Shown here piece after piece: positions 7,873 to 27,810 of a stretch of 64,000 nt of DNA (positions within the stretch are counted from its first letter, which is position 1; the number at the start of each line of letters is the position of its first letter). The position numbers and the translations under genes are program-made. The notes below the pieces were generated by a model, which saw only the letters and a list, made by a program, of their open reading frames with translations, made no database searches and was not told the DNA's origin. The stretch comes from Gracilaria domingensis (taxonomy: Eukaryota > Rhodophyta > Florideophyceae > Gracilariales > Gracilariaceae): the NCBI GenBank assembly GCA_022539475.1, contig VCMS01000018.1, positions 124,001 to 188,000 on the forward strand. The letters run 5' to 3'.

Positions 7873-8413
7873 GGCCGGTACAGTAAGCAGTTCCCTCCAA
7901 CGTCTGTGTTCTGCAAAGTGGAATATAGTCTGTTCGCTTTGGAAACTAAGCTAGTTTTTGGGCTATTTAGGGCGCGCGAGGGGGTGGCAGAGGCTGGCAC
8001 TCAAAAACTTAAGAAATTTTGAAATATTAAATTCCATCTCGCGCAGTTTCATTCTTGGATCTCCTAGTTTTTGTAGAGGTTCTACTTCGCCGCACCACCT
8101 TATCCACTCTTTTCCGCGACCCTCTCTCAAAACTGCGATCTTGCTAGTTTGCCTTTCTATTTTCTCCCTTGTTGCAATGTCAATCGCAACTCATCCCACC
8201 TCAATCATCCCATCATTTCTTCCCATTCCACACCACCCCCACTCTTTACCCATTTCGCGCCCATCACGCGTTCGCATCCTCCCTCTCCGTCTCCGCAAAC
8301 CTTATCTCGTAGAAGTCAGGTGGGCAACTCTCCCCATTCTCGTATACCCGCCTCGCCCCAAAACGGCTTCACATCCCTCCCATCCTTCTCTCTTCCTCTC
8401 CCCTCAGAATCCC

Positions 8414-9298: not shown

Positions 9299-9540
9299 CT
9301 TCAGAAGAAGAAGTAGTAGATGGATCGAAGTTTTCGCTGCGATACAGTGCAATCGAATTAAGCTGTGCTGGCCACCTCCACTGTCCAAACATACGGGCTT
9401 TATCCAGCACCATGATTTTCCCTGTTTCTCGCATCCCATTTCCCGCCAAAACATCTACTGTACACCTCCGCACCTTCCACTATTTAAGCGTCACCCCTCT
9501 GTCCCCTCTTTCGCGCTCACATCGTCCCCATCCTCCTCGC

Positions 9541-9905
9541 CTCCACTGGGGATAGTTTTCTCTTCCGCCATAACCTCACTCGGTGGTTATGGCAGAACAG
9601 GAAGATGTCTGCACTGGAGGCAAGCTGCGGAGTAGTGATTGTACTTAGACTAGTTCACCCTCCGTCTCGACTGGGGGCATCTTCTTCTTCTGTCACATCC
9701 TGTGCGGGTTGTGACAAACAGGAAGATGTCACCACTCGACACCGGATGGATAATAGTGATAGCACGTAGAGTACTTCATTCTGCCTCTCAACATCCACTG
9801 GGGATATATTGATGTTCTCTCACATCCTTTCCCGGTTGTGATACAAGAGAAATACATCTCAAATGGAGACGGAGAATATAGTCGTAATAACACGTAAACG
9901 TAACA
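9541..9905. repeat. Three tandem ~120-bp units, each with a hairpin
   Basis: Units at about 9,541-9,660, 9,661-9,785 and 9,786-9,905 share a CACTGGGGATA-like start, a central hairpin and a TAGTGAT/GTAATAA-like tail. The hairpin stems are GCCATAACC with GGTTATGGC (flanked by TCTTCC and GGAAGA), GTCACA with TGTGAC (flanked by CATCTTC and GAAGATG), and TTCTCT with AGAGAA. The sequences differ while pairing is kept, which hints at selection for structure. They sit between the orphan gene start and the 3' end of the epimerase gene. Confidence 0.6.
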
Positions 9906-9937
9906 ATATAATAAACAATAATTTTATGCTACTATCT

Positions 9938-10645
9938 CTAACCAACCTTTCGAAAACCAGCTATGACATGAGCTCGGTTACTCGAGCCAAAGATGGCAGA
10001 TCCTGCAACTGAAATGTTTGCACCGGCCTTCACTACTCCTTTCACAGTACTCAGTCCAGTACCTCCATCCACCTGTATCCCTATTCTTGAGTACAACTCC
10101 CTTGCATGTCGCGCCTTATCAAGAACACCCTCCATAAACGCCTGTACCCCAAACCCTGGCTCCATCGTCATCAATAATAACATGTCTACAACTCCTTCCT
10201 TCATAAGTGCTTCTACGACCTTTATAGACGTATTCGGGCGCAACGCAACTCCAACCTGCATTCCCATCCTTTTAATTCGGTTACATAATTCCTTCAACAC
10301 CACGTTCTCCTTCTCAGTTGGTACCTCGCACTTTTCTAGTCCCTTAGCCACACTCTCGATATGAAATGTGACTCCGTCTGCGCCTGCTTCTGCAAGGTCT
10401 TTTATCCAGCGCCCAGGATCTGATACCATCAGATGACAGTCCAAAAACAATTTCGTATGCCTCCGCAACGCTTTCACAACAGGCGGTCCAACAGTAAGGT
10501 TCGCCACATAATGACCATCCATTACATCCATATGCAGCCACTCCGCTCCAGCCTCTTCCATTGCACTCGCTTCATCTGAAAGGCGAGCAAAGTCTGAAGC
10601 CAAAATTGATGGCGCTATAAATAAACGAGAATTCATACTGAACAT
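9938..10645 (-). CDS. RPE: Ribulose-phosphate 3-epimerase
   Basis: The enzyme interconverts ribulose 5-phosphate and xylulose 5-phosphate in the pentose phosphate and Calvin cycles. The translation follows the family from end to end: APSILASDFARL at the start, LHMDVMDGHYVANLTVG (metal and substrate residues), DCHLMV, MEPGFGVQ, QVDGGTG and the phosphate-binding GANISVAGSAIFG. The usual EPGFGGQ has Val for the second Gly. I start at the ATG at 10,645 (MFSMNSRLF), giving 235 codons, close to the usual length. The frame is open to 10,705, but that part contains the likely TATA box. No plastid transit peptide is obvious, so a cytosolic form is likely. It is divergent from the neighbouring plus-strand gene and has no stop or frameshift, so I regard it as a live host gene. 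Confidence 0.93.
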   Translation of the reverse strand: MFSMNSRLFIAPSILASDFARLSDEASAMEEAGAEWLHMDVMDGHYVANLTVGPPVVKALRRHTKLFLDCHLMVSDPGRWIKDLAEAGADGVTFHIESVAKGLEKCEVPTEKENVVLKELCNRIKRMGMQVGVALRPNTSIKVVEALMKEGVVDMLLLMTMEPGFGVQAFMEGVLDKARHARELYSRIGIQVDGGTGLSTVKGVVKAGANISVAGSAIFGSSNRAHVIAGFRKVG

Positions 10646-10690
10646 CGATAACTTCTGTAACGCCAAACCCGTCCTTCTCAGACACACCCC

Positions 10691-10699
10691 CCTTTTATA
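10691..10699 (-). promoter_or_regulatory. TATA box of the epimerase gene
   Basis: On the minus strand the sequence reads TATAAAAGG, about 46 nt upstream of the ATG at 10,645. This spacing suits a TATA-driven start with a short leader. Confidence 0.5.
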
Positions 10700-10995
10700 C
10701 CTCAATAAAAAAGAAGATTATGGCAATCCGAGTGAAGCTATAGAACCAGTTCACGTCATTTATGAAGCCAAAATGGCTCCTTTCATCCTGTATTCAAGCT
10801 CCCCGTAACTCGTACTTTACAACTACTTTACAACTCCGGTTCGAAATCAGTTTCATTCATTGTACACTTTCTACTCTTCCACCTACTTTTCATAAAACAT
10901 CATCACACTTTGTGGCTTGTCGTCTCATACAAGCCCTATCATTCATTCAGTACAATCACATATCATACATTTCGCTCACTTTCACAAAGTGAACC

Positions 10996-12012
10996 ATGTT
11001 CCCGTTCTGCGCTTCCCAACAGTTTTTACTTAAGTATCACTCTTTACCCCAGCAGTTCTCCGCCCCATCTTCCATTTTTATCGTCACACAAAACAATCGA
11101 ACACTTGCAATGAACTCCCAGTCCGACATGCCTCCGACTCCGCCTCCGAGTCCCAGATACTCTGACGTCCCTCAGGCCTCATCTCCCGCCCGAAGGACTC
11201 GGGCCGTTATTGTTGGAAGGGGGCTTATAGGTAACATGCTGGCGAACGAAGAAGATATGGCCATTTCCGGACACGAATTCTGCAGCATGCCTGCTACCTC
11301 TCATCTTTCTGATGTACCGATACTAGTTTGTGGAAGAACGAACACCCTGGAGACCATAATTCAGGCTTGCCCTTATTCGCTCAGAGAGAATCTCGTTTTC
11401 TTCCAGAATGGAGACATCATACCATTGCTTTCGAAGCTCGGTGTGGACAAATGTTCAAAAGTTGTCCTATACGTTGGTGTCCTCTCAAGAAACGCAGCTC
11501 CGCAAGATGGTGTCACTCCTCAAAGTCCGGATGGTCTCACTGTCGCAACAGGAAAGTGGGCCTCCAACGTTGCAGACAGGTTTAGGTCTATGGGTCTCAC
11601 TTGCGGGGTCGTCGACGAAGACACATTTCTCGTAAGCTATTATGAGAAGCTCGTGTGGCTATCAGCGTTCAACATCGTCGGGGCCTCAAGAGGTTTCATG
11701 CCTATGGACGTAGTCGCTACGGAGTGCAGTACGGTTGTGGTCACAATAATGAAAGAGCTGTTGAAGATAGTTTCGCTTAAGACGAGTACTACTTTCAACC
11801 TGGAAGAGACCGTTGGGCGACTCCTTGCATATCGGAAAACTCTCGTTGGCTTCCCTACTTCTTTCTCCGACTTTGAGTTTAGGAACGCGTACTTCTACGA
11901 GTTTTCCCGCCAAGAAAGAAACATCGTAGGAGGTGACGACGCTCCGTTTCATACAAACTACGTCAACGTTGTTAAGGAAATGTTATCTCCCTCCCCATGC
12001 CCCCAGCTTTGA
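10996..12012 (+). CDS. Ketopantoate reductase-like (ApbA/PanE family) protein
   Basis: This is an intact frame of 338 codons from the ATG at 10,996, which has a favourable GAACC context. A second ATG at 11,110 (MNSQSDMPP) would remove 38 residues that could be a targeting peptide. After a Pro-rich stretch the Rossmann start RAVIVGRGLIGNML shows the GxGxxG pattern. Then come PILVCGRTNT (end of a core strand), LVFFQNGD (the N-G motif of this family) and, in the C-terminal helical domain, YEKLVWLSAFNIVGASRG, which resembles the E-K-W-N signature of ApbA_C. The usual catalytic K-N spacing is not clear, so the substrate may not be ketopantoate. It is divergent from the epimerase gene across about 350 bp. 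No frameshift or stop was seen. Probably a live host gene; the family call is moderate. Confidence 0.7.
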   Translation: MFPFCASQQFLLKYHSLPQQFSAPSSIFIVTQNNRTLAMNSQSDMPPTPPPSPRYSDVPQASSPARRTRAVIVGRGLIGNMLANEEDMAISGHEFCSMPATSHLSDVPILVCGRTNTLETIIQACPYSLRENLVFFQNGDIIPLLSKLGVDKCSKVVLYVGVLSRNAAPQDGVTPQSPDGLTVATGKWASNVADRFRSMGLTCGVVDEDTFLVSYYEKLVWLSAFNIVGASRGFMPMDVVATECSTVVVTIMKELLKIVSLKTSTTFNLEETVGRLLAYRKTLVGFPTSFSDFEFRNAYFYEFSRQERNIVGGDDAPFHTNYVNVVKEMLSPSPCPQL

Positions 12013-12584
12013 GGTTTAGAACACAGGACTTTTCGGTGTTCTAGACCTTATTGATGTGCAAACGAAGTTTTTAGAGATAGTTAAACATAAAATTTAATTT
12101 ATCGAAATGACCTGTTCCTATTACATTACTTATACTGCTCGTCCTTCTGCGCTTCAAATATGCCCTTTTAAAACCTACATCCTTTATCACTAATACGTGG
12201 CCAAGGTTTTGCTAGATGGAAAAGGGTCACACCTTATCATTGGAGTGCACGATACTAGTACAGAAACAAGTACCAAATTGTGATATTTCTGAAGAAGTAA
12301 ACCTTTGCCATATACTGAGGGCACCCGTATAAAGTAAGGGAAACCTTTTATGGGTTTCAACCCCTAATGGAGGTCGTTTTACTCTCTTGGATTTCTAAGC
12401 TCATGTTGAAGATTTTCATAGTTTTCTTTACCAACTTGAACCTGTACATATAATTTAAGACTAAATCTTCCTTTCTTTACTGCAAAACGATGCAAAAGCT
12501 TCTCTTCCTAGTAACATTTTAAAACAGTACTACAATACCCGTATATGGTTATTCTTAGACTCTTTTTATACTACGAAACACCTT
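12013..12584. other. Intergenic, no gene recognised
   Basis: This is AT-rich sequence between the reductase-like gene and the phosphatase fragment. It holds only short frames. It presumably contains the 3' untranslated part of the upstream gene and the promoter of the downstream fragment, but I cannot point to a clear signal. Confidence 0.35.
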
Positions 12585-12662
12585 GTGAACATCAATCACA
12601 TCCTTCTCATTCGTATACCCATACCCATTTGCAAAACGAACCGTTTCGAAAGCTTTCAAAAC

Positions 12663-12824
12663 ATGTATAACTCAGAAGTTAGAGCCCAAGAAGTAACTCC
12701 TCGGCAGCTGGCTAACGAAATATTTGAAAATGGCTACGCGGTGATTAGTGATATTGACGGTACTCTGAAAAAAGCTGGGGACAATATTCCTGCCGAAACA
12801 GTCAAATGCATGAAGTACATTGAG
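12663..12824 (+). pseudogene. HAD-superfamily phosphatase, N-terminal fragment
   Basis: The ATG at 12,663 opens a frame with EIFENGYAVISDIDGTLKKA followed by IPAETVKCMKYIE. DIDGTL is HAD motif I (nucleophile and acid/base aspartates), and the following IP-x(8)-Y/L pattern is that of the HAD-IIA group (NagD, p-nitrophenylphosphatase, phosphoglycolate phosphatase). The rest of the enzyme, including the TNN, Lys and DD motifs, is not found downstream. Instead the antisense ParB-like gene begins here. The break at about 12,824 reads GAG/GTACGA, so an exon end with a donor site, and a transposon inside the intron, is also possible. I favour truncation by the neighbouring element. Confidence 0.5.
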
Positions 12825-12829
12825 GTACG

Positions 12830-14114
12830 AAGCAACACATAACAATTCCTTCATTCCAATGGGCCTCAAATCTCTTCGTATCAGCAGATTGCAACGGCAA
12901 AACTTGGCTAATCTCTTCCACTTCGGTGCACCAGTCGCTGCCAAATATTGTATAGCTTTCAGACGATGCAAACCATCCCCAATGGAGCACTTCTTCGTTA
13001 GGCGTTCCTTGTCAGTATCCCTCTCTCCAGTAGTAGCATCTTGTAAATCCATCACTGGAGAACCCATCGACTGCAATATCCCCTGCTTCTCCATACTCTT
13101 CACAAGGGCTTCAACGTTGCGTTTACATACTCCACGGACTAAATTGGGCGGAGTGTCTACGAAAGTGATGTCAACAGTAAGAAAAACCATCCGGTAGTGA
13201 TTGAGATTCACCTTTGGGACCTTCTGACGAATTCGTCTGTACGTCTTGCTCTGAGTAGGTGTCCCTTGTGTTCCAGACCGCTTGCCAGAAACATTTGAAC
13301 GTGCCATTCTTGCGGACAGAAGCACAACGTCATCGTCCTGCTGCTCCGCAGTTTGTGGTGCAATTTGGGGTACAGATGAACAAGCTCCTTGCGCATCCGC
13401 GTCTGGAACGGGGCCTTTTATGTTCTCATCTTCCTCTTCTTGCACAGCCGTCCCGTGCTGAACTGGCTGTTTCGACACAGAAGATCCCCTTGTGTCGAAG
13501 GTCTGATTCATCGCAGGGGATGCCCTTCTCGACACAGTGGGCTTCGTTGCGGATGTAGATTTTGTTTGGCCTGTCCGCTTCGTAGCTGGGGATGATCTCG
13601 TCTCCATATTCCGCTTCGTAATAGACGACGGACCGGCCCGCGAAGGTGCTACTGATGCGCTACCTCTCGGTGTTGATGAACTTCGAAATTGCTCCGTGCG
13701 GCTTGTCGGCGTCATCACCCCACTCATAGCGCTCACGGTTCGTCGCTTGGACGCCGGAATGCTGGCTTCCACCGGTTCCATCATTTTCTCATCCCAAGGA
13801 GCGGCAGTCCGGGGATACTGGATGTATTGTGGAAGATCCAGGCGCTCCGCCCGGTAAGAGTAAAACGTCTGACCGCTTCGACGGATGCGAATATTATGAA
13901 CCGCCATAAGACCTGGGTCCAATTGCTTCCTGTTCAACTCGCGAGGTTGAACACTTCCAATTCCATGCAACAACGCTTCCCCGACTATCACCTTTCCTTC
14001 ATTCTCAATATCCATCTGCAGAGAAACCCGCATTCCACCTTGCAATGATCGAGTGCTCCGCCGAGTGCGAGAAGTCATGCTTTGCGTACGCTTTCGGACA
14101 CGTGTTGGCTTCAT
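12830..14114 (-). CDS. ParB/sulfiredoxin-fold domain protein
   Basis: This is a long intact minus-strand frame starting at the ATG at 14,114. The N-terminal half is basic, with Ser/Thr/Pro-rich low-complexity repeats (residues about 120-230). Then VALVKSMEKQGI-like helices and CSIGDGLHRLKAIQYL (about residue 385) match the ParB N-terminal fold, where a D-G-x-HR loop forms the nucleotide or phosphate site. Such domains are commonly fused to DNA methyltransferases in bacteriophages, and here a methyltransferase gene is the divergent neighbour. The frame formally runs to 12,672, but below about 12,830 it reads antisense to the HAD fragment, so the true end is unclear. A possible 5' exon lies at 14,146-14,484, with GTAAGT at about 14,207-14,202. 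The join I tried does not keep the frame, so this is unproven. Confidence 0.55.
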
Positions 14115-14145
14115 GTTGAACAGCTATTGCAGTGAAAAGTGTATA

Positions 14146-14484
14146 TCAGCAATACATTGGCTCTGGACGATACAAGAACGGAGGCGAGCCTTTAAATGGC
14201 GACTTACGCTGGGCACCCCCGCTTTCGGCAGCTCCTTCCAGCGCACTGCCATTCCCGTCTGTGTCCTGTCCGTGGCCGCTCGCACGCTGATTGTACGCTT
14301 TAGAGTCGTGGAGTACGCGCAATGATGACTCACGCGAGCAATGGTCGCGCTCTCTAATCGTGGTCTTCAAGCGCTTAGCGCAGTAGTCAAGAGTACACTC
14401 ATTCACATTCATGTACAGCCTACTCCCGTCAATACAGGTGGACAGTGGCGCCAACGTACCGGCGGCCGGGTGTAGCAACATCAC
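14146..14484 (-). pseudogene. N-terminal segment shared with the divergent gene
   Basis: The minus-strand frame contains GSALEGAAESGGAQ followed by SPFKGSPP. The plus-strand segment at 16,090-16,285 has GSALGGAAESAGAQ followed by LQFKGSLP. The two are homologous at DNA level as well, in mirror positions either side of the fold-back element. It may be a 5' exon of the ParB-like gene or a duplicated leader region. A single ATG-started frame extends from 14,484, but its first half shows no similarity to the other arm. Confidence 0.45.
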
Positions 14485-14489
14485 TTCGG

Positions 14490-14668
14490 AGGGGAGTGTT
14501 TTGGGAGGTCCCGGGAAGGCGCCAGAATGTGGCCAGAACGTGACCGCGGGCGGGCGGGGGTCGGTCGTGTTAGAATAGGTACCCTAACACGACCGGACCC
14601 CCCCGCCCGCGGGCACGTTCTGGCCACATTCTGGCGCCTTTCCGGGACCTCCCAAAACACACCCCCCG
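14490..14668. repeat. Near-perfect 179-bp palindrome
   Basis: The arms run outward from GGTACC at 14,578-14,583: CGTGTTAG and CTAACACG, then CCAGAACGTG and CACGTTCTGG, then GGGAGGTCCCGG and CCGGGACCTCCC. Both halves have a C/G-rich tract. Related palindromes around the same GGTACC core lie at 15,645-15,780 and 15,815-15,957. Confidence 0.75.
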
Positions 14669-15644
14669 GCACTTTCTGCACCCACCGCGTCACCTCAGCG
14701 CACCAACCCGTCTTCTTCACCCTGCAGACGCTCCCTAATTCCCACGCGCACCACACCTACCCTCTCTGCGATCACCATATTCCTTCTGACGTGCTATCGG
14801 TCACTGAATCAGTGGCCGAATCTGTATAATTGAGTGGTTCCCACCTGTTCTACACGATGCAGCAGGGATGTAAACCACTCAATGGTAGACTGAGAGGGTT
14901 ACTCAGCGAGCAAGGCACTACTCTGTTCGCTTAGTAGCCTGTTACAGTACTCCCCATTTTTGTCTTGATCAAGGCCACCAGCAGTATATGCACCAGAAAG
15001 TTGCAATTGTGCAACATGGCACTTCACCGGCGAGCAAGCGAGGGAGGTGCCCCACTACAGAATCTCCGGGAGCAGGCGAGGCTGCGAACCCACGACACTG
15101 AGCGCTGCTGACACCAGGGTGTGAAGGGCGTTGCGAATGCGCTTCACACCCTTCCGTACGTGCTCCCCCTCTCATCGTACCAACTTTGTGCCACAAACAC
15201 AAAACGTCACAGTTCGTAGCCTCTATCGCGCCTCGCCTGATCCCGGCGATTCTGTAGTGGGGCACCTCCCTCGCCCGCTCGCCGGTCAAGTGCCATGTTG
15301 CACAATTGCAACTTTCTGGTGCATATAGTGCAAGTAGCCTTGATCAAGACAGGAATAGGGACTACTATACCAGGCTACTCAGCCAACAGTGTAGTGCCCT
15401 GCTCGCTGAGTAACCCTCTCAGTCTACCATTGAGTGGTTTACATCCCTGCTGCATCGTGTAGAACAGGTGGGAACCACTCAATTATACAGATTCGGCCAC
15501 TGATTCAGTGACCGATAGCACGTCAGAAGGAATATGGTGATCGCAGATAGGGTAGGTGTGGTGCGCGTGGGAATTAGGGAGCGGTTGGAGTATGAAGAAG
15601 ACGGGTTGGTGCGCTGAGGTGACGCGGTGGGTGCAGAAAGTGCC

Positions 15645-15957
15645 AGGAGGTGTGATTTTGGAGTTCCCGAGAAGGTGCCAGAATGTGGCCAGAACGTGCC
15701 CCGCAAGCGGGGGGGGGGGGGGGTGGTCGGTCGTGTTAGGGTAGGTACCCTAACACGACCGGACCGCAGGCACGTTTTGGCCGATTTTTTGAAAAATGTG
15801 CGATTTTATGCTCGCGGCGGGGGGTTCCCGTCGTGTTAGGGCACCTACCCTAACACGACCAACCCCCAACCCCCCCTCCCTTTCCTCCCCACCCGCGGGC
15901 ACGTTCTGGTCACATTCTGGCACCCTCTGAAGACCTCCCAAAACACACACCCCCCGT
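15645..15957. repeat. Paired short palindromes with a G15 run
   Basis: Two diverged copies of the palindrome seen at 14,490-14,668 lie side by side. The first has GTCGTGTTAGGGTAGGTACC followed by its inverse. The second has GTCGTGTTAGGGCACCTACC followed by its inverse. A run of 15 G lies at 15,709-15,723. Together they form the right end of the fold-back element. Confidence 0.6.
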
Positions 15958-16089
15958 ACTTCCCGCAGTGATTTCGCTGCACACGCCGTGCACATATATC
16001 AAACTAGACAAAACTAGCGCTTCATATCCACTTGATCCGCGACTATTAGCACAATACGCGACCTTTGCAATAGCTCCGAATCGCGACGT

Positions 16090-17030
16090 GACCGACATGC
16101 GACGCTATCGCACCCGCTCAAAGCGACAAGGACAGCGACCTCAGAAGCGAGCGGGCATGGACATGGACGAGACTGGCAGTGCACTGGGAGGAGCTGCCGA
16201 AAGCGCGGGTGCCCAGTCTAAGTTGCAATTTAAAGGGTCGCTTCCGTTGTTTGCGCTGAAGCGGACGTCGGATTTAGAGGGCTAATAGAGTTCTGCGCCG
16301 AGAACTATAGAGATATTCCGGAGGCAAGGAAGATGTTTGAGGAGGCCACTAACTCCAAGAACCTGCAGAACTTGACACTGCAACAGCTGCGAAAGAGTGT
16401 CGTCAATAACAAACCGGTAGAGCAACGATATCTTGTAACGAAGCTTCTTGACAAGAAGGACGGGGATGAGGACCAGAGACTCCGCGATTATTTCTTTCTC
16501 TCTATGGATATGGGTATATACCTACCGGTGCGATGCCTGGTTGGTTATTTCATGACCAGGAGAAAGCAGGTTCTGAAGACGACAGTGTTTATCCCACCAA
16601 CAGCTGTGAACCCATTTGAGGCCGTTATGTATTTATCATACTTCGGCCACATAATTGGGAGAGAACGACAACATCAGAATGATGAAGAAGAAACAACCGA
16701 AAGAGAAACGAAAAGTGAACCATCCACCATCTGTATACATACCCCCTTTTACGTCGTTCTCCAAAGACAACTGTGATCGACTGTGATTTGCTATCAGTGA
16801 GGTCGTATGGGCATGGAGTTGTTTTGCGGCTCATCTTGGATATAAGAAGTTCAGCAAATGGTGAAACCATACATTTGCATGAATATGCAGACGTTGAAGT
16901 TTACAGCGCTAGAGACACGGGAGTCTGGTTATGCCCCGCCAAGCCAGAGTACTCTATTCAACACACAGGATGTGCCACAGAGCAGTACTGGTGGATCGGC
17001 GGAGACCTTGAGCGATTAATGCGATAGGAA
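16090..17030 (+). pseudogene. 5' part of methyltransferase-SET gene, function unknown
   Basis: This coding-like stretch leads into the methyltransferase frames. It begins with the shared GSALGGAAESAGAQ segment. In another frame it continues as ENYRDIPEARKMFEEATNSK and then a charged, helical region to 16,776, followed by a third frame at 16,773-17,027 (HEYADVEVYSARDTG, CATEQYWW). I recognise no domain. Frame changes at about 16,280, 16,775 and 17,030 suggest decay, although small introns cannot be excluded. The ATG at 16,098 (MRRYRTRSKRQ) is the most plausible start. Confidence 0.4.
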
Positions 17031-17040
17031 CCTTCGAATA

Positions 17041-18420
17041 TTGGCTAAGGAAGTTTTGACAGACCTCGAAACCACATGCACCCAAGATAGCCTCTATATC
17101 TTGGGGGTTTATCAGATGAGGAACTGGATAGATTTTTCGGAGATACGGATGGATACCGTATCTTGTTCTGACTCCAGTGAGTTGCTTGCACGATTTCAGA
17201 ACTTTCCGGAGTTCCTACGGAAACGGATACAGGATATGCGTCATGCGGCAGGGTTTAATGTGGGCATTCACGCGGAACCGCATATTGAACTGGCGAATCC
17301 TCCTAAAACTTCCAGTAATGCCGAACCTTCTTGGACCAAGTCTGCCCCACCCCCACCTCGTCGAGAGTATATGGACCTCGTGAGCTCCGATAGCGACAAC
17401 TTCGAGAAGCCGGTGAATCGTGCGGAGCATAAATCTCGGGTTGCCGGGTACAACATCCAAAAGACTGGTAATGAGCCGCCCATGAAGGGGATATCCAGTC
17501 TCCTTCGAATGAATATGGACAAGGTGTGGAAGGGGATGAGAAAGTCACACTTTGTAGCGTACAACTGTGACATGAAGAACCTAAGGCACACACATGAAAC
17601 ATTTCTGAATCAGAGTGAGATTTTATGGGGTGAGGCACAGCTTGTTCTAACAGAGACCCTCCCTTTAACCTTCGAAGGAAGAGGAGCAAACGGAATAGTG
17701 CTCACGATATCTTCAGTGAGGAAGACATGATCAGTACGGCTGACTTAATAAGTTCCGCGCTTCGGTCTGGTGGCCACTTCATTATGTTCTGTGCCATGGC
17801 ACAGTTTCATGTTTGGCACAGGATACTCTCGGAAACGGCGAGTACGAAAGATGACGCTGGAAGCGAAGGTAAGCCAGAACTCATGCCTTACTTTAAAGTG
17901 CATGGGAATCCACTGGTATTCATCCGGGATCGAAGTAATGTCGGCGGGAATCCACGGAAGTTTGGGATACAGCCCGTAACGGAGTACGCCGTTCATGGGG
18001 TGAAGCCTGGATTGCGACCATCCGAAGAAGCCACTCGTACTCCATTTGAGGAGAACAATTTCATTCCTTCTACTTTCTCGACTAACAGGAATGTAATTGA
18101 CCGGGTGCTGAAGCCGAGAGCGGGGGAGTGGTTGACATAGAAGGTAAATGAGCCACGTAGTTCAGTACCAAGTGCGCAGTATATAAGACCGGAGCAGAAG
18201 TCCAGGGAGTTGATGAAAGAGTTGATATGTCGGTTAACAAGACCGGGTGATCGTGTCATGTTCGCGGGTACGTTTTCTACGGGTATTGCGTGCCTATCGC
18301 TGACAAAGCATAAGAAGTTCTTGGAGTGCGAGAAGAAAAGGCCATGTTTCAGCCATGCGAAGCAACATACAACGACTCTTGGCCGAAGTTCTTCGCGGGC
18401 CCTAGGAGAATCATGTTTTA
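17041..18420 (+). pseudogene. Beta-class DNA amino-methyltransferase (N6/N4), decayed
   Basis: After a Pro/Ser-rich linker (about 17,290-17,500) the frame carries HFVAYNCDMKNL and then LVLT. A shift of frame at about 17,655 gives DPPFNLRRKRSKRN, the catalytic motif IV (DPPY/F) of DNA amino-methyltransferases. HDIFSEEDM and a GGHFIMFCA strand follow. The C-terminal part has RPEQKSRELMKELI and RPGDRVM, then FAGTFSTGIACLSL and FLECEK, which correspond to motif I (SAM-binding FxGxGT) and motif II. Motif IV before motif I is the permuted beta order (Pfam N6_N4_Mtase). It would add a methyl group to adenine or cytosine amino groups in DNA. There is an in-frame TAG at 18,138, a two-residue gap before FAG, and another frameshift after CEK (about 18,340). 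I therefore call it a pseudogene, with the family call fairly certain. Confidence 0.75.
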
Positions 18421-18429
18421 TCCGAGGGT

Positions 18430-18518
18430 GAATACGGGGTGTGCAAAGCACGCGCACGGGGTAGATTGCAATTTTGACCACCCAATTCTCGAAATAATCC
18501 CGTGCACACCCCGTATTC
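18430..18518. mobile_element. MITE family C, copy 2, within the methyltransferase-SET gene
   Basis: This is an 89-bp element with 16-bp perfect inverted ends: GAATACGGGGTGTGCA at 18,430 and TGCACACCCCGTATTC ending at 18,518. It is a shorter relative of the element at 2,741-2,885. It sits between the methyltransferase and SET parts and happens to keep one frame open. Confidence 0.65.
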
Positions 18519-18789
18519 TCTCTTTTGATTCTACTAGGGCCCCCGGGGGAAGAATGACATCGTGGTTAAACAGGAGGTGGTGGATGCTGCTTCAACGACT
18601 TATGAACGGGTTCCACATCGGGACCGAGATCGGCTTGAATGGGAGGCTTTATTTGGATACCCCCAGTACCAAGTGATGCCTGCACATATTACTCAGTTCC
18701 TAGGAAGATACTGGAAGGACTGGAAGTTCGTCGACAAATGTGGACAGCATACTCCAGATCTTTGTGACGAGAAGTACTGAGGAGCTCTG

Positions 18790-19375
18790 AATCTAACGGA
18801 TATGCATATGCTGTTGAATGTTGAAGCCAATCGCTATCGCTTACATGTAGCATCTTCTAAGATTCAACATCCCCATGCTGGTATGGGGGTGTTCACGGAC
18901 CATAAGATATTGGCTGAGTAGACTATCTGTCATTTTTATGGAACTTTGGTATACACGGATCTGACGAACCGGAAGGAAAGACACTCAACGTATGGAAGTG
19001 GCTGTCTCGGAGCAACTCCTGTGCGGTGCAAGTTGTTTTCTATGATGGTCACTGTGACTGGTTCCGAGTTTCTGCACCTGAAGAACAGACCAGAACAGGC
19101 TCAAGATAGAAAGGACAGCGAAGTCTACATTGTCCCGGCGCCTTTTTGTATTGGGGGCTACATTAACGACGCCGGAAATCATGCCGGGATCTCGATTTAA
19201 TGCAGCTCCGGTCGAGCAGGACTCGAAATGCCAATGTGGAGATGGTGGAAGCAAAGTCCGTGATACAGTTTTAAGTCCGACCTTTCTAACTATGCTCTAC
19301 TTCGTTGTAGAGTAGTAAGAGATATTGAGAGGGGCGAAGAGTTGTATTTCAACTACGGATTGCAGTACGCCTGAG
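18790..19375 (+). pseudogene. SET-domain (protein lysine methyltransferase) segment
   Basis: Pieces in two or three frames line up as a SET domain. GMGVFTDHKIL (G-x-G-V-F start) is followed by TICHFYG with a TAG stop directly before it at about 18,919. PAPFCIGGYINDAGNH corresponds to the IN-H substrate motif, NANVEMVEAKSV to the N-x-x strand, and VVRDIERGEELYFNYG to the C-terminal I-x-x-GEEL-x-x-YG motif. Frame changes occur at about 19,190 and between 19,280 and 19,315. A TGTAG acceptor-like site at 19,313 leaves a tiny intron possible. It directly follows the methyltransferase on the same strand, so the original product may have been one protein joining DNA and histone methylation activities. 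No post-SET cysteines are visible. Confidence 0.7.
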
Positions 19376-19587
19376 ATTGGGCTCCGACATTGGAGCAATA
19401 GATGAGTGCAGTACCGAATAGAAAGTAAATATGCTTGTGAATGTTGCAGCTGCCAGCAATATGCGTTGTAAATGTACACTGGAGCTCTTCATCTATTTGT
19501 AACAGCGATATTTGCGACCCATTGGGCACCTCAATTTTCTAAAAAGCAGGAACTGTGGAGTCACCCGGAATATCTGAAGCGTGCACT

Positions 19588-19601
19588 CCCCCCCCCCCCC
19601 C
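19588..19601. repeat. C14 homopolymer
   Basis: An uninterrupted run of 14 cytosines lies shortly upstream of the coiled-coil gene start. Confidence 0.9.
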
Positions 19602-19641
19602 TCCAACTTTTTCGTTTCATTACCACGTTCAACTCTACAAT

Positions 19642-22080
19642 ATGGGCATAACGCCGATAAAGCGAAATAGTACGCACCGAAACAAGAGTGGACAGAAGAA
19701 GAGAAGAGCATCGGATGATACGAATCAGGCTACAAGCACCGCACTTTCTAAACAGAAGTCGTCTACGACGAAGGAGAGAGTCAGTGGGCGTCCTTCTACA
19801 GTATTCTCTCGCCCATCTTGCAGCGGAGTGTCTTCCGGAATTGCGTCAAGAATTCGTGGATCAGCGAACGATGTCGTGCCGTCAACTGCCGATATTGCAA
19901 ATCGTGCATCTGTGTCTGCTCTGGGAGAAGAGGAGGTAACTCGGCCCAGCGGGCCAGGACCGGAGGGCATGACAAATGGAACTGAAGAGGTTCGTATGAC
20001 ACCAAAACTTTCACGTCCCCGCCCGATATCGAAGACTGGAGCTACTGGGGTTACGCTGCCCAGTGGATCTGGACAACAAGACATAATGACGAGAAGTCGT
20101 GAGAACCCTAATATATTACGATCGTCACGTCCCTCCCTGTCATCTAGAACTGGGGTTGCTATGAATCGTATTATGCCTCGCAATAGGTCCGGACAAGGGA
20201 GAAAGACAATAAGAAATCGAGAGACGACTGATAGGCGAGTTACTCCTCGACCTTCCCCCCTTTCCAGAACGGGGGCCGCTGCAGCTCGTACGAGGCCCAA
20301 TTCATCTGATATACGATACCATGGAGGAGGACATACACGGGAGTTGGAGCTGTGAGCCGTGCCAAGGGTGGACACAGAAAACCTGCAGCATCTCGTGTCT
20401 AAGGGTATGGCACATGAGGATAGTTCCGATAACGAAATAACACCGAATCCTGCGTCATTACCGGGGCCTGTCGCCGAAGAGGCTAGGGAAATACCGGAAA
20501 ATATCCACACTGGTGTGAATTCAACCTCGATGAACAGAGGTGATCTTTTAAATGAACTGAATTGCTTGAAACAAAAGGTTAAGACTCTACAAGAGGACTT
20601 GATGGTTCGGGGTATTCTAGTGAAGGTCGCCCAAGAGCAGAGTACGGCTTTGAAAAAGAGGCTTGAGGAGAAGGATCTAGTCATTCAAGGGCTAAGAAGG
20701 GCACTGAAACAGGAGGGAGAGAGGAGTACACGTGCTGGTGAACCTGGGCAGATAGGTCGAAGGAAGCATAAAATTGAGGTGTGCGACGAGTTTCCAGGGG
20801 TTGCTCGAGCAGTTTATTACAACATGCTGACGTGGGCAAAGAGAGAAACAAGTGAGCTATGGCTCGAAGGTGCGTTGCTCACCCAAAATTATGGTAACCG
20901 TGCCGAGAAGATGGAAGACGCAACTGAGAGTGGGGAAGGACTTATGGAGCCGGAGGAAGGTGGTTCATATCTGGTTCCTAAAACCCCCGTGGAGCTCTTG
21001 GGCGGTTTTGGCTTGTTCAAACCGTCGGTAGAGGGAGGGGCAGATCCTTTGCTGCAGAAAATGGTTGAAAGCGAGTTGAAAGAGTTGAGCTGGGAAGGTA
21101 TTAGAAAAGGATCTCTTACCGACAGGTGTATACTGGAACTTTGTGCAGATATGTGCCTTAGACAGAGAATGCGGCAAACCATGAGTGACGTCGTGGGCGT
21201 TTGAAAGAGAAATACGAGAGATAAACTATTTCTGCTCTTGGGCTACAATCTGATTTGGAGAAGAACAATGCTTGTAGAAGAGAATGCTGACGAACTCACA
21301 ATGCAGTTGAAGGAAGTGCAGGAGAACATACTGCGTCTCGACGACAATGGTGCACCGAACACTTCATTGTGGAGAGAAGACCCATTTGTTCGTCTAAAGT
21401 ACTCCAATGGAGACGATGTGTAGGATATGACGACGGAAGATCAAGACATGTTCTTTCGAAACCGTGTCGGGGTACAAGTGCTGAAGGAGTTTATTGGGTA
21501 TGATGTGGAAGACAAGGATACGGGCACCTTTTTAGATGGCACAATGCTGTTGCTCGCACGTTTAGACGCTTGGGTGCTGACGGTTGTGAGCCTTCTAAGT
21601 ACGGATCTATCAAGGAGTGGCCAGAGACAGAAACTGTTTACAAAGAAGTTTGCCCAACTGCTACCTCTGTGTTTAAAGAATGTTCTGGGGGATGTGAGGC
21701 AACATGTCTTGAGGACCAATTCCAGCGAGTTTCATAATTATGGAACGACAACGGAAGACTGGACTAAGGTTCTTGGTAATGACATGAGAGAGGCTACATT
21801 TGGATATCGAATGCCGTCGAACGGAAAACCTTACCTCACTGTGAAAGAACAATTTTTTATTGACAGTGTGAGCCGAAGATTGGGGTCTATTAGCGATTGT
21901 TTCGTTGGTAAATGCGAGGAAGGGGATATGGAGTTCAAGGAAATGGACATGAACGATTTTCGAAGTAGCACAGGATCACAAGAAAAGGCACCACAAGGTG
22001 AACATGTAGAGGACGGAGCCCTTAATGTTCAAGGCTGTACAAAACCAACGTGCTCAGTTGTTCCTTCATCTGAATCATGA
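19642..22080 (+). pseudogene. Large coiled-coil protein of the transposon
   Basis: One frame runs from the ATG at 19,642 (MGITPIKRNS) to 22,080, about 812 codons. It is broken only by three stops: TGA at 20,353, TGA at 21,202 and TAG at 21,421. There is no frameshift. The first 240 residues are basic and Ser/Arg/Pro-rich with repeated SRTG-type motifs, similar in style to the ParB-like protein. A strong coiled coil follows (about 20,540-20,720: NELNCLKQKVKTLQEDL and KKRLEEKDLVIQGLRRAL). The C-terminal 400 residues look globular (MTTEDQDMFFRNRVG, YGTTTEDWTKVLGNDM) but match nothing I know. It is convergent with the transposase and overlaps its 3' end by about 50 bp, which suggests that both belong to one element. 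The stops could be decay by point mutation only, or, less likely, read-through. Confidence 0.6.
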
Positions 22081-25000
22081 TAGAATCGATTGATGTAGAA
22101 TCGGTGTTGGAACCATTGAAGTGGAGGACGAAAAGGTGGAGCAGGGTAGTTTCCGCGACAAACATGGACTGTTCCCTGTAGTGCAGAAGCCGGAACCATC
22201 CCGTACCAAGGAGTTAACTCTACGAAAGTCTCCGTTTTGGACTGACGAGGGAACGGAAGATTGTGGTTCTTTTCATCATTTGTAGCCCACTGTAAAGATA
22301 TGCATTTCAATATGTGGTCGATGTTTGTTGAGGGGGTTAAAACCTCGAAATACCGGACGAATGCCACCTCTGGTGCGGTAAGTGCAGAATCAAGGAGAGA
22401 TATTCGAATCAGAGCGCCCACCTGGGCAACCCAGGTCTCTGAATCTTCTCCGCTTACCAATACAGTGGAAAACTTTGGCTTTTTACTGGGACCAAATGCT
22501 GGAGAAGCGAAGACTCGTTGGATGATGGGGTATTTGGGTCGTCCCAGCTTAAGTGCCTTAGAAGACGAATGTAAGTGTTCAAGAGTTGGAACGAAACCGC
22601 CTTTCACGAGGGCCGAATTCACCAGAGTTATCTTTGTCTTTTCTGGGAAGTATGTAATAGAGTGCTCATCCAGTGTTTCTTTCACGAGACTGAGGAAAGG
22701 AGGATGGGCCTGTTCACCAATTTGGTCAAGAATCGACCTTGTGTCCGTACTTGAGAACATCTCTCTAACAGCAGTCCGTGTTTTTGAACTGGAAATACTT
22801 GAAACAAATTGTTGAAGAGCTCGTAAAGTGAAAGAACGCCCTCTCATTGCAAACCGAGGAAGCTGTGTGGAAGTTCCTGGTAAACCTGGATTACGCTGGT
22901 AAGGAGTATTGCCATTCCATTGCTTTCTAACATGTCCGTGCTCAATGGAGCGAATAGTCTCCTCCACAGCCGTTGCTGTTCTTCTGGACGTCTTTTTGTA
23001 GTGTCTCTTAAATAGCAGGTGTGCATGTTCGTATATGCCTGCGTCGTGGTACTTGATACTTCCCAGACGGCGAATATCGTCCACGAGATGATCGAGAAGA
23101 TGAAACTTCAAAGTTCCGAGTCTGGAGGGAGGAAAATCCGCCAGAATCTTTGTTGCAGAACGCTTGAAGGCTTCAATTACCGAATTAAGACACAGAAGAG
23201 AGCTTTCAGTCCAATACGGGTCACGATTGTATCTGAATAAGGTCGAAAGCAAGTCCTAGTACTGAGAGAAGACGGTTGTGATTGGGGCAACGTCCTGTTC
23301 TCCACAGCATATGTCAAAGAATGTTCCTATGAAGGGGAAGACCATGTCAAGTGCTTCGTAGTTTTTGGCCTCCAGCATTCCACGGAGACCGTCTTTCGTG
23401 AAGATACCATTCTAAGATTTGCCTTTCTCCTGCGTGGAGACATCGATATGTAAACCTTTGGTAGGTGAATCGCGTTCTATGGCAGCTAGAATTGCGTTTG
23501 CAGGGTTGAGGAGTTGGGTGCGTATCGTTCGAAATGAACGCGATGCAGATGTTCCTATTGTGATGCACAGGGTGTCTCACTGCAGTCTCTCGATTTTGGC
23601 CGTTTTTATCAGCTTCGAGATGCCGAGATGCAAGTTGTTTAATGGTTCGAATGAGAATATACTGTATGGAGACAATCCCGGGATCATTCCAAGGCTTACG
23701 GGAGTTTCGAGGAACGAAGGAATGAGAGATATGGAATTTGAACGCATCAGAGTATCCGCCTGACATCTCCTCTCCCTTGCACGACATGGACGTCTTTCCG
23801 CCTCGTCTTTTTGTGCATGTTGCAAGATAGCTGTGTATGTCTTTCGGATGCTTTTCGTGTGCTTTTGAGAACGTCTGTTGAATGAGGTGGGAACAGGACT
23901 TCATAAAGATGAGCGAGGGGCTTTGCCTCTATGACACGGGCTTTCCATTTTGGTCCCATGAAGAATGGACAGAATGTCCTTAGCCTCAGGAATATCCGCA
24001 CAATAACTTGCAAGCAGAGGATGGCACACTCGACTTAGTTTGTCTTTGCCGATGAACTGAAAACCTTTCTTCTTGAGATTTAGAATGGGCTCCAGGACTT
24101 GACGAAGAGATTCTTGAAGGATTTGCATTCTGGACTCGCGTAGAGACTTGCTAGAAACGAATGGCATTGCGTCTGCTTCAGATGCGGAAATTTCGATCAG
24201 TGTGGTAGGGAAGTATGCCACTACTGTGAGGTCATCACGGATGCACTTACGACGTAGCTCGTCGGAGAAGTTGAGAAATATGAGGTGAAGAGGATAGGCG
24301 GTAACCGATGTTTGCTTTAGAGTTGTTGAAGACTTATCGGTGTATACCTGCAGAAGACCTACGAAAGATTCACTGTAACTTATTTCTTGGGAGTACCACA
24401 CTATTCTACTATCCAAAGAGCCCATGACCATTTCCTTAAGTTTTGAGGTGGCGTCTCTTGCGAGAGAGCCGGACATGGGGTGAGATATTTTCGTGGAGTG
24501 GATCTGAGGTATAGGGTGGAAGAATGTGTTTTCGCTGTTAGCCAACTAGAGCTGTTTCACAAGTGTTTGAACGGGGTCTCTCGTGTAGAAGGTGGCGCTG
24601 AATTTACATCCTTCTCGCAAGACAGTTCTTCGATTGAAACCGTCTTTTGAGACGTATCGTTCGAAAATGGCGTTCTTCAGTTCTGTACAGCGCTTGGAAC
24701 TTGTTATGGTCTCGTTGAATCGCTTTTGCGAGAATCGCGGGTCGCGAAGTAGCCCATTTAGCTCGTCTGCTTCACGATGACCAAGGTTGGAAGCTACTGA
24801 AGCCAGAAAAACCGTGAGATAATCCATATTCAAATCACCGAAGGCCTCCTCAGAAGGCACTGGGCGGGAACTGCTTCCGTGTTCTCGCTCTAATGCCGCG
24901 GGACCCGGGGAAGGAGAAACACAATGCGAAGTGTCCGGAATGAGAGGGGCGCACGGAGTGGGGTCAACGATGTCCTCGGACACCAGAAGCTCGGGAAGGC

Positions 25001-25208
25001 GACAAGGGGCAGTGACCGTTTCCGAAGATGCGGGCGCGGGCGCGGAAAGCTTGAGACGCTTGCTTCTTCGAATGGGCCGCATATTGTCGTCTTCGAGCGC
25101 GGCTTTCAGACGAAACGGGCAATGGTTGACATGCTGTTGAAGAGATAAGACTCCTCGGCGAGTAACGAACGGACACCCACGCTTCTTATGTGTACAGTAG
25201 TAGACCAT
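22029..25208 (-). pseudogene. Plavaka/CMC-like transposase with in-frame stops
   Basis: A single minus-strand frame from the ATG at 25,208 (MVYYCTHKKRG) to 22,029 spans about 1,060 codons. It is interrupted by stops near 24,546 (TAG), 23,901 (TGA), 23,574, 23,412 and 23,260, with no frameshift seen. The N-terminus has a C-x6-C-x13-H-x3-C zinc-finger-like motif (YYCTHKKRGCPF, QQHVNHC). The middle carries LLQVYTDKSSTTLKQTSVTA, LHLIFLNFSDELRRK, and FEPLNNLHLGISKLIK, the D/E-PLH-x-LHLG motif of this transposase group. The C-terminal part has FHLLDHLVDDIRRLGSIKYH and YEHAHLLFKRHYKKTSRR. This order resembles Plavaka and related CMC/KDZ cut-and-paste transposases of fungi and algae. A homologous 5' fragment occurs at 62-63.2 kb. 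The superfamily is fairly sure, the exact family less so. Confidence 0.75.
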
Positions 25209-25304
25209 GGAAAGAAAAAATGAAGGTGAAACGACGACAAAGACGGCAAAAGAAGGTTGTCCGAAGGAAGAAGGAGGTCGTACGACAGTAAAGTTCGACT
25301 TCAA

Positions 25305-25630
25305 GCTGAGAGCGGAGAATATATTTTGAGTTTAAATCACGTGCTTTTGTTCAAAAAGGAACGTAGGTACACGTCGACCTCAACACAAGGGTGTACTTCT
25401 CGTATTATCTACCACTGGTTATAAACCTGTGGTTTCGCAACGTTGTAGGCTGTACACCTGTCTAATCTGGCACAGAAATAAATCTTTTCCCTCCGCCGCC
25501 GCCGCCGCGCCTCCGGCGTCCTACCTACCGTTACCGTCGTGATCCGTGCCATCCACATCCTCGCGTTCTACTCCGCTCCGTCGTACCTTTCTCCGCCCTC
25601 GCACTCGCTACGATGTAGAGTGCGGGGAAG
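25305..25630. other. Transposase 5' flank, with CCG microsatellite
   Basis: This is likely promoter sequence for the minus-strand transposase. A (CCG)n-type run lies at about 25,494-25,510. I see no TATA box that I would defend. Confidence 0.35.
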
Positions 25631-25634
25631 AGAA

Positions 25635-25711
25635 TGAGGTACGCTTCATGTCCGCCTAATGGAAGCCTTCATTAAGCGGACATCATCCGTATCTCACGGA
25701 TGTATTCCGTG
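25635..25711. repeat. Two consecutive hairpins
   Basis: An imperfect 27-bp stem pairs 25,635-25,661 (TGAGGTACGCTTCATGTCCG and on) with 25,670-25,696, with an 8-nt loop. It is followed at once by CACGGA-TGTAT-TCCGTG at 25,695-25,711. Together with the hairpins at 26.4 kb it forms an array upstream of the transposase. Confidence 0.7.
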
Positions 25712-25830
25712 CAGTCTTTTCGTACGTTCTTCCATATCCTTCTACGTATCTTTGCTATAAACAAACCAATCCTCACCACGTCTCTTCGCGCTCTGCGACA
25801 TGTAAACGGCAGGAAATAAGCTTTGGGTTA

Positions 25831-26289
25831 CTTTTGCGAGTTCCTAGGCCCCTCCACTTTTCTAGCGCAACGTTTCTGTTTTGTTTTTCAATGGTACGTT
25901 CCATCGCATTTCAAATGTATCCAACGGAGCATTGACTAACTTGATCTTGAGAGAAGAAATGAAATTGGTCGTTTCCCTGCCTGACTGCTCGGGAAAGGCG
26001 TTTCTGGTACTTGGTTGGGACATAGGCTGCATTCTCGTTTATCGCATCTTGCGGTATGTTTGCTGCATGAGCATTCTTGGTGTCGTTGCTTGTGAGTTCT
26101 CGCTTCGAGATTTTTCGCGTTTTACGATGAAAGGATTGTTGCTAATCTAACCGATCCCTTTTCTTCTTCTTCTTCCTTTTGCGAGTTACTAGGTTCCTTG
26201 ACTTTTCTAGCGCAACGTTTCTGTTTTGCTTCATTAATGGTACGTTCCATCGCATTTCAAATGTGTCCAACGGAGCATTGACTAACTTA
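25831..26289. repeat. Direct repeat pair of ~113 bp
   Basis: Sequence 25,831-25,943 recurs at 26,176-26,289. Shared blocks include CTTTTCTAGCGCAACGTTTC and CGTTCCATCGCATTTCAAAT, and both end in GGAGCATTGACTAACTT. The spacer is about 230 bp and has no recognisable gene. It looks like a subterminal repeat of the neighbouring transposon. Confidence 0.7.
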
Positions 26290-26361
26290 TGGATACTTTC
26301 TGCTTGAGTATACTGGTAAATGACTATTGATGCGGACGTAGCTCACGAGTTGCAGGTGCAG

Positions 26362-26537
26362 GTTCCTCAAGTGGGGAACCATGCATTTGGGCATGGTTTC
26401 CTACTTGAGGAACGGAGAGGATGAGGTGCTTCGCGCCTCATCCTATCGGAGTGCGTATGTGTTCTACCGATACCGCGCTTTGATGGAGGTGCAGTCTGCG
26501 GCAGCTGGCGCAGATTGCGCCTACACCCGCTCCATCA
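26362..26537. repeat. Three consecutive strong hairpins
   Basis: Hairpin 1 pairs 26,362-26,384 (GTTCCTCAAGTGGGGAACCA and on) with 26,391-26,413 around a 6-nt loop. Hairpin 2 pairs AGGATGAGG at 26,418-26,426 with CCTCATCCT at 26,436-26,444. Hairpin 3 has TGATGGAG (26,481) with CTCCATCA (26,530) and an inner stem GCAGTCTGCG (26,491) with CGCAGATTGC (26,509). Confidence 0.7.
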
Positions 26538-26794
26538 TGGGGAAATGGTACATGTAATAAAGCGAAGTAGTGGTTAGCAAAAGCCGTCGATAGAAGAATA
26601 GATACGAATAAAACGGTATGATTTCATAATGGGCATCATCTGTACTAGCACCAGTATTCCATGCGTTGCAGAGTATCATTCCGTAGAACGTATCGTATAA
26701 TGTGCACCTTAATGGAAACTGAACCTAGGCTTCGCGAAATACCGTTCAGGTAGTCCTCGACTAAAGAACTAGCACGAGTGGAAAACCCACCAGT

Positions 26795-27810
26795 ATTTAC
26801 TGCACAGCGATTCTGGACGACCCAAGCAATTATCTCCCAATTTTGAAATAATTGATCTCGATATTTTTTCAAAATATTTACTGGACGACCCTTGCCACTT
26901 TCTGGACGACTCTCGCCAAAAACTAGCATCTGCAAGAGACAGACGTTGTGCAGTCTCCATATTGCAAACCCCAGACGAATTGCAAGTCTTCAACGCGGCA
27001 ATCAAGGTAACGAAGCTTCATCACCGAGATCCAGAACCAATAAGCACTTTAGAGTTTCTCACCTTCAATAATGGCAAAAGGCAGCGAATACCGCAAAACA
27101 TCTGGGGCCGGACTTTTCTGGAAGAATCTGCTCACAGATACCTCGCCGATAAGAAGCTAGCGCGAACATGCACGGTAAAAAGATGGGAATCCATGTCGGC
27201 AAGAGCAAGAATCAATTTATTACATTCAGTGTGTATCGCCGAAATAGAAGTCACGTACTTCGATTGAGATAGTGGCTACACAGTTTTCACGTTCTATGCA
27301 CATCTCAAACGAGGAAAAATTTGCGGCGTAAAAGCCACACCAGACAGTTATAATAGAGCTCATCGCTGCTCCCATTGTCCATACACAGATGAAAGACGCA
27401 TCGAAAGCACGAAAATTGATGCGCTAAAGAAGCGGATACCTGTCATCGACTGTGTACGCTCAGAACTGAGCGAATAATACGATTCTAGGCAATTATTGCA
27501 ACTTTCAAAAGATCATGTTCAGGAAAGTGGTCTCTCGGAACAAGTATCGGCATATCTCGAGACTAACTTCGGAGCATTCGCTTCGAATCCACTCTCGAAA
27601 CGAGTTCAGATTAAAATACCCGAAGGTGGAAGTTATGCAACCGAAGAAAATCGGGATGTCAAACTAGTTACGTGCCAGAGATGTAATGGGTATACGTTCT
27701 TGATTGCTCCAGAATTCCAGAAATGCCCGCAGTGCAAAGCACGTGGGTACCACCCTTGTATGAATTGCACCACATTCCGGCCACCACAGCGAAAGTCGTT
27801 CTTTTCGTGA
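26795..27810 (+). pseudogene. Zinc-ribbon protein with two in-frame stops
   Basis: One plus frame stays coding-like from about 26,795 to 27,810 (about 338 codons) and is broken only by TGA at about 27,265 and TAA at about 27,475. The N-terminal part is mixed alpha/beta (FEIIDLDIFSKYLLDDPCHF, LQTPDELQVFNAAIKVTKLH). After the first stop comes HRCSHCPYTDERR. The end has TCQRCNGYTFLIAPEFQKCP, then QCKARGYHPCMNC, giving CxxC-x14-CxxC and a further CxxC, which looks like one or two zinc ribbons. I do not recognise the family. It starts next to the hairpin array at 26.4-26.5 kb and precedes the inverted duplicated element. The start codon is unknown because the 5' end has decayed or lies in an unidentified exon. 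Confidence 0.45.

Follow-up and report, generated by a model that had tools for sequence, protein, structure and literature searches.

What brings a ParB-like gene, a DNA methyltransferase and a SET domain together beside a transposase in a red alga, and might such a set of genes act as a unit? The question is raised by a stretch of 64,000 nucleotides from Gracilaria domingensis (assembly GCA_022539475.1, contig VCMS01000018.1, positions 124,001 to 188,000 of the forward strand), referred to here as the window. A first-pass annotation had grouped five genes between window positions 12830 and 25304 into a candidate transposon: a ParB-fold gene, a beta-class DNA amino-methyltransferase, a SET domain, a large coiled-coil protein and a Plavaka/CMC-like transposase. 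Our comparison of copies across the genome showed that these five genes are parts of one mobile element and that the window copy is an internally deleted form of a DNA transposon of the Plavaka group, about 22.9 kilobases (kb) long. The element is therefore larger, and its gene content greater, than was first supposed, the annotated span being too narrow on both sides.

The unity of the element rests on its recurrence. The genome comprises 77.9 megabases (Mb) in 680 contigs, by which copies are named below (C20, C91 and so on; the window lies on C18). Fourteen matches to the phycobilisome-linker family, spread over nine contigs, identify the host as a red alga. A 1.5 kb piece of the annotated region gave 536 first-look candidates genome-wide, and all 40 that were scored matched across it: the window at 100%, the other 39 at 92%. 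Ten copies were fetched for comparison (C20, C91, C117, C409, C137, C168, C69, C3, C32 and C230). The first seven of these are collinear with the window from position 12818 as far as a shared right end at about 26945, C168 being interrupted by a gap, which bears out the supposition that the genes travel in one order with a common end. C3 and C32 leave their contigs before the right end is reached, and the second stretch of C230 contained no match of at least 150 bases to the window. Moreover, one pair of ends encloses the transposase together with the ParB-like gene and the methyltransferase gene, and no separate ends exclude this cargo.

Leftward of 12818, seven loci stay alike in gapped alignment, L008 only across its last 0.9 kb. 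Four copies (C20, C91, C409 and C117) were extended by 10 kb in this direction; the first three reach the 7.9–12.8 kb region of the window after an extra ∼4.5 kb, and of the C117 extension only the last 600 bp resemble the others. The element spans 22,840, 22,929 and 22,949 bases in C20, C91 and C409, respectively, where the three 30-kb stretches contain 356, 1 and 589 N. Lost from the window copy with the ∼4.5 kb are the rest of the first HAD-like gene, a second HAD-like gene, a gene for a protein of 593 amino acids (aa) and the 3′ part of the ParB-like gene. The idea of an insertion site at 12818 was given up, since an internal deletion accounts for the break there. A long interspersed nuclear element (LINE)-like element with variable left truncation, suggested by ungapped comparison, was also dropped, because gapped alignment shows the left extension to be common to all seven compared loci. 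The right end of C69 (L027) abuts another copy at the equivalent of window position 8726, apparently a nested insertion.

The common ends, at 7901 and 26945, carry the termini CGTCTG...CAGACG. The 42-bp left-end pattern has 566 genome matches at three mismatches or fewer (reversed control, 0), and the right end reads CGTCTGTCTCTTGCA as its reverse complement. Were all 566 left ends to belong to full copies, they would account for 13.0 Mb or 16.6% of the assembly, an upper bound because shorter copies exist. Both ends were read in seven such copies, in which 6–14 kb separate the ends, presumably as a result of internal deletion. The 2 bp on either side are the same in six of them (TA, TG, AT, AA, AT and AA), as they are in the long copies C409 (AT) and C20 (AG). 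The final bases of the right end are missing from C238, and no left end was found for C49. Among the matches listed, many minus-strand left ends fall less than 14 kb from a contig start, and contigs therefore seem to end within the element. Ty3/gypsy sequence flanks some copies (L010, L018/L019 and L050), with 137 first-look candidates for one gypsy stretch.

The assignment of the transposase as Plavaka/CMC-like was upheld, PF18759 being significant both on the window piece (2.5e-16) and on a piece of the C91 protein 741 residues long (4.6e-19; 69.2 bits against a cut-off of 26.3). The 1100-codon frame is open in 21 of the 123 rows listed by the Plavaka profile search; in C91 its product has CHRC at 466 and HLLDH at 744, the DDE residues not being placed. 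According to the accessible part of a study of fungal elements (Kojima 2025, PMC12730594), Plavaka lineages have A-type (TGT..ACA) or B-type (CATCA..TGATG) termini, target duplications of 2 or 3 bp in fungi, and C(2)C and H(3-4)H motifs in the interval from the second D to the last E. The termini found here are of neither type, and the element is therefore filed as Plavaka by its transposase only. Genome searches with the methyltransferase and SET profiles (best 150 of 328 and best 150 of 311 candidates, respectively) placed a convergent Plavaka match within 12 kb of 32 of the 150 methyltransferase rows. The spacing is 5.32–5.36 kb in 14 of these pairs, 11 of which have a SET row beside them, 5.5–5.9 kb in 13 and different in the remaining 5. 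In the 5.5–5.9 kb group Plavaka frames reach 1110 codons and many rows match other profile ranges; it is therefore taken as a diverged relative, and its 13 pairs suggest a second Plavaka group. Pairs of this kind lie on G000:C12, C247, C277, C22, C403, C399 and other contigs.

The methyltransferase and SET domains named in the first-pass annotation were both recovered above cut-off in the C20 copy, by PF01555 (E 1.9e-16, 61.1 bits against 26.7) and PF00856 (E 1.5e-8, 35.5 bits against 22.4). The window gene is broken by stops, frame changes and a 145-bp insert that is absent from nine other copies compared at that place, and its own methyltransferase reaches 2.3e-4 with PF01555 on one piece, below cut-off. 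In beta-class N6/N4 DNA methyltransferases motif IV lies ahead of motif I. Here DPPF precedes DMFAGT, and by family and motif order the enzyme is classed as a member of the beta class; DPPF, by a rule that we assume to hold, makes adenine N6 the probable target. Among the matches listed there are 76 adjacent methyltransferase/SET pairs on the same strand, 36 of which are separated by exactly 388 bp. In 31 of the 150 methyltransferase rows SET follows in phase and the two frames have the same number of codons (at most 1170), suggesting a single fused methyltransferase–SET protein. Three loci on one contig (C382) have frames of 1169–1170 codons with a partial methyltransferase match plus SET, and one 481-codon frame of C32 scores with both PF01555 and PF00856. 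The two domains thus apparently form a single polypeptide.

To the left of this gene, and divergent from it, lies the ParB-like gene, whose fold is weakly supported. The frame predicted in the first pass is present (676 residues in C20) and matches PHROG ParB-like families with E 7e-4 (phrog_3264, over 44 residues) and 0.084. The same frame found no significant match in Pfam or PDB, where the best hit is unrelated (E 1.3), and none in NCBIfam, and a single-sequence structure model of a piece of the protein has a predicted local distance difference test (pLDDT) score of 43. A 30-bp palindrome occurs three times in the window and never in 100 shuffles. Of 67 loci that span the interval from the ParB-like gene to the methyltransferase gene, some of them overlapping, 18 contain it exactly, one to six times each, and within the sequence examined it is confined to that interval. 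From this position alone we infer that the ParB-like protein may bind the palindromes.

From left to right, the fuller element carries coiled-coil gene 1 (−), epimerase (−), 339-aa gene (+), HAD-like (+), HAD-like (−), 593-aa gene (−), ParB-like (−), palindromes, methyltransferase–SET (+), coiled-coil gene 2 (+) and Plavaka transposase (−). Coordinates are collected in Table 1. The large coiled-coil protein of the first pass survives as open frames but belongs to no significant family. Among the ribulose-phosphate 3-epimerase rows listed, 27, the window's included, match profile positions 2–198 without a stop; the C69 row, which lies in a fetched element copy, carries one. Many further epimerase matches occur in the genome, a large share of those listed being C-terminal fragments with 106-codon frames. 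The second HAD-like gene matches PF08282 at 5.1e-5. To the eye the start of the 339-aa frame recalls a ketopantoate reductase, an assumption of ours that found no support, and a model of a 299-aa part has pLDDT 37. Likewise, the HTD...H pattern of the 593-aa protein, which we would take by eye to recall Fe(II)/2-oxoglutarate (2OG) dioxygenases, and which could mark a new oxygenase of that kind, is unsupported by any search, the protein matching nothing significantly in Pfam, NCBIfam, PHROG or PDB. No TET/JBP dioxygenase family was present in the proteins scanned.

Table 1. Features of the transposon copy in the window (positions in the window unless a locus is named).
Feature	Position	Strand	Evidence or remark
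Whole transposon copy	7901..26945		common ends and collinearity with C20, C91, C409
Left end	7901..7942	+	CGTCTGTGTTCTGCA..., 42-bp pattern
Coiled-coil-like gene 1	8373..9397	-	open frame 8414-9454; no significant family
Ribulose-phosphate 3-epimerase, intact frame	9938..10717	-	PF00834 E 7e-62; TIGR01163 above cut-off
339-aa gene, intact frame	10993..12012	+	no family
HAD hydrolase-like gene, 5′ part	12465..12820	+	cut by deletion; PF08282 E 1.2e-11 on C20 copy
Deletion junction	12818..12820		∼4.5 kb lost; 3 bp common to both sides; C20 positions 5774 and 10319 meet
593-aa gene	L029:509-2287	-	in fuller copies; HTD...H pattern
ParB-like gene, truncated	12818..14114	-	phrog_3264 E 7e-4 on C20 copy
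30-bp palindrome GTCGTGTTAG-N10-CTAACACGAC, copy 1	14564..14593	+	pattern count against shuffles
Palindrome copy 2	15730..15759	+	same pattern
Palindrome copy 3	15830..15859	+	same pattern
DNA methyltransferase–SET gene	16263..19398	+	methyltransferase 17579-18399, SET 18589-19398
Insert	18400..18544		145 bp, inverted ends GGGCCCTAG...CTAGGGCCC; interrupts methyltransferase–SET gene
Coiled-coil gene 2, several frames	19555..22080	+	open frames; no significant family
Plavaka transposase gene	22032..25331	-	PF18759; broken in window copy
Subterminal direct repeats	25828..26288		spacing ∼345 bp
Right end	26916..26945	-	reverse complement CGTCTGTCTCTTGCAGATGC..., shared right end of copies

Ratios of non-synonymous to synonymous substitution rates (dN/dS) were obtained by comparing the window with a single further copy (C20 or C91) for each gene, as one-sided tests with approximate site counts, nine in number and uncorrected. 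The methyltransferase domain has the lowest ratio of the genes tested (0.305, p 1.3e-5), its N-terminal part giving 0.64 (p 0.10). The N half of the transposase stands at 0.43 (p 3e-4) and the other half at 0.54 (p 0.013), coiled-coil gene 1 at 0.48 (p 0.0016), coiled-coil gene 2 at 0.57 (p 0.011) and the HAD piece at 0.63. A shifted frame gives a higher ratio than the true one in every case but three, the +2 frames of SET, of the HAD piece (0.43) and of the 339-aa gene. On these ratios purifying selection is clear for the methyltransferase domain, the transposase and a coiled-coil gene; it is not clear for the ParB-like gene and SET.

What, then, might these genes do for the element? Our preferred reading, to which we assign a probability of about 0.55, is that a ∼22.9 kb Plavaka-group transposon encodes one methyltransferase–SET protein that marks both DNA and histone, together with a ParB-like protein that binds the palindromes. 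The transposase would bind the ends and the subterminal repeats and move the element by cut and paste. The methyltransferase–SET protein would methylate DNA, probably at adenine N6, and also, within the same chromatin, a lysine of a histone, and the element would thereby gain a chromatin state of its own, most likely serving escape from silencing or control of copy number. By binding the palindromes between its own gene and the methyltransferase gene, the ParB-like protein could regulate both genes or recruit the writer. Least certain are the target of the marks, element or host, and their direction, activating or silencing.

Several observations weigh against this reading. Frames were listed for nine copies, and no single frame in any of them extends all the way from the DPP motif through the end of SET; the long equal-length frames (1055 codons in seven pairs) are known by length, not by sequence. 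Among the matches listed, a SET row stands beside none of the 13 pairs spaced 5.5–5.9 kb. No significant constraint was detected for SET (dN/dS 0.63, p 0.07; +2 frame lower, 0.48), the ParB-like gene (0.70, p 0.08) or the 339-aa gene (0.81, p 0.32; +2 frame lower, 0.77), and the only Pfam hits of the C20 ParB-like frame (E 0.23 to 6.1) fall in three families that are unrelated. The flanks of the seventh shorter copy, C57, differ with either of two left ends tried, and the long copies C91, C165 and C100 as well as the window copy have no matching target duplication. Wrong joins of near-identical copies could explain such failures in young copies, an explanation that does not cover the window copy. 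Finally, an empty-site comparison of C20 with one gypsy copy gave a clean right junction and left the target duplication unsettled, because the left flank is unrelated and does not carry on the gypsy sequence of the right flank; the 2-bp duplication was settled by the shorter copies.

The absence of significant constraint on the 339-aa, ParB-like and SET genes is what would be seen if the methyltransferase–SET, ParB-like and metabolic genes were passengers, captured from host or bacteria and without a role for the element. The epimerase fits the same picture, its N-terminal half (window 10257–10717) being missing from C20, C91 and C409 and many listed rows being truncated. However, passengers would hardly account for the low dN/dS of the methyltransferase domain or for the two spacing groups of convergent Plavaka–methyltransferase pairs, and we regard this explanation as unlikely, if the best of the alternatives. 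A bolder form of the preferred reading is a self-marking transposon in the full sense, in which one protein writes N6-methyladenine (6mA) or N4-methylcytosine (4mC) plus a histone lysine mark, the ParB-like protein addresses the palindromes as a parS-like array, and hundreds of copies share a private chromatin state. Self-marking of DNA and chromatin, raised as a possibility in the first-pass annotation, is something we infer; this complete version strikes us as doubtful.

An integrated DNA virus or virus-derived element, with ParB-like and methylase genes from a viral ancestor, is improbable. Phages and related elements do combine ParB and adenine-methylase domains, as the accessible part of one report describes (PMC5512222), and the match of the methyltransferase to phrog_67 (E 3e-24) fits viral ancestry. 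In phage records the methyltransferase has eight matches, the best sharing 28.9% identity across 77% of its length, and the ParB-like protein has none. However, SET and Plavaka are of eukaryotic type, no virion or replication family appeared among the proteins scanned (part of the frames), and a search of viral contigs with three protein queries, limited to close relatives, found no relative. That the genes are not one element at all, their adjacency arising from nested insertions and wrong repeat joining in the assembly, is the least probable account: a nested copy exists (C69), many listed left ends lie near contig starts and several long copies lack matching duplications, but order and right end agree in 7 of 10 copies, duplications match across the shorter copies and the methyltransferase–transposase spacing is held to 5.32–5.36 kb in 14 of 32 pairs.

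Retrotransposons reportedly acquired cytosine methyltransferases, as de Mendoza is said to have described in 2018; like the Gracilaria element these are mobile elements with a DNA methyltransferase, but they are retrotransposons and the enzyme is a cytosine C5 methyltransferase, and we know of no SET domain in them. The closest relatives in print, each taken from the accessible part of its source, resemble the element in single respects. Fungal Plavaka transposons, which occur with and without TET/JBP, share with it a PF18759-type transposase, a 2-bp target duplication and, in some cases, a DNA-modifying gene, and the CxxC and HxxxH strings of the C91 protein may correspond to motifs of theirs; the element differs in its CGTCTG...CAGACG ends, its ∼22.9 kb, its methyltransferase–SET in place of TET/JBP and its red algal host (PMC12730594). 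Oomycete HarbingerS and MuDR transposons, mentioned in the same text, likewise join a DNA transposon to a SET histone methylase, but with a different transposase and no DNA methyltransferase mentioned (PMC12730594). In the protist Amoebidium, giant repeats are flanked by Plavaka and form tandem clusters with tyrosine recombinases, whose database matches are confined to distant lineages, red algae among them; that text contains no SET domain or ParB and describes no ends or target duplication (PMC11244446). The bdelloid rotifer N4CMT is a bacterial-type amino-methyltransferase taken into a eukaryote and, as here, joined to a chromatin domain, but it is a host gene with SPPY and a chromodomain that reads histone marks, whereas ours is a transposon gene with DPPF and SET (PMC8885841). 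Phage and bacterial ParB–methylase proteins combine both domains, which here are separate divergent genes of a eukaryotic transposon with weak ParB similarity (PMC5512222). Giant eukaryotic transposons are multi-gene and tens of kilobases long, as here; a survey names Gypsy-like, Terminon, Helitron, Polinton and Teratorn elements and not Plavaka (PMC6431247). EnSpm-Plavaka is mentioned in a green alga (PMC12636532), and the accessible text of a Gracilaria study has nothing on the element (PMC12502185).

Both giant repeats with Plavaka flanks and transposons that carry SET or TET/JBP have thus been published, as far as the accessible texts go. Searches of the open-access literature, which includes few subscription papers, showed no transposon with a DNA methyltransferase–SET fusion. 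If the fusion is real, a DNA amino-methyltransferase and a SET domain on one polypeptide would couple DNA marks directly and physically to histone marks, and their carrier would be a transposon whose ends number in the hundreds in a single genome. The element would then be a case in which one can test how new epigenetic marks reach eukaryotes through mobile elements, and whether 6mA or 4mC is used by red algae.

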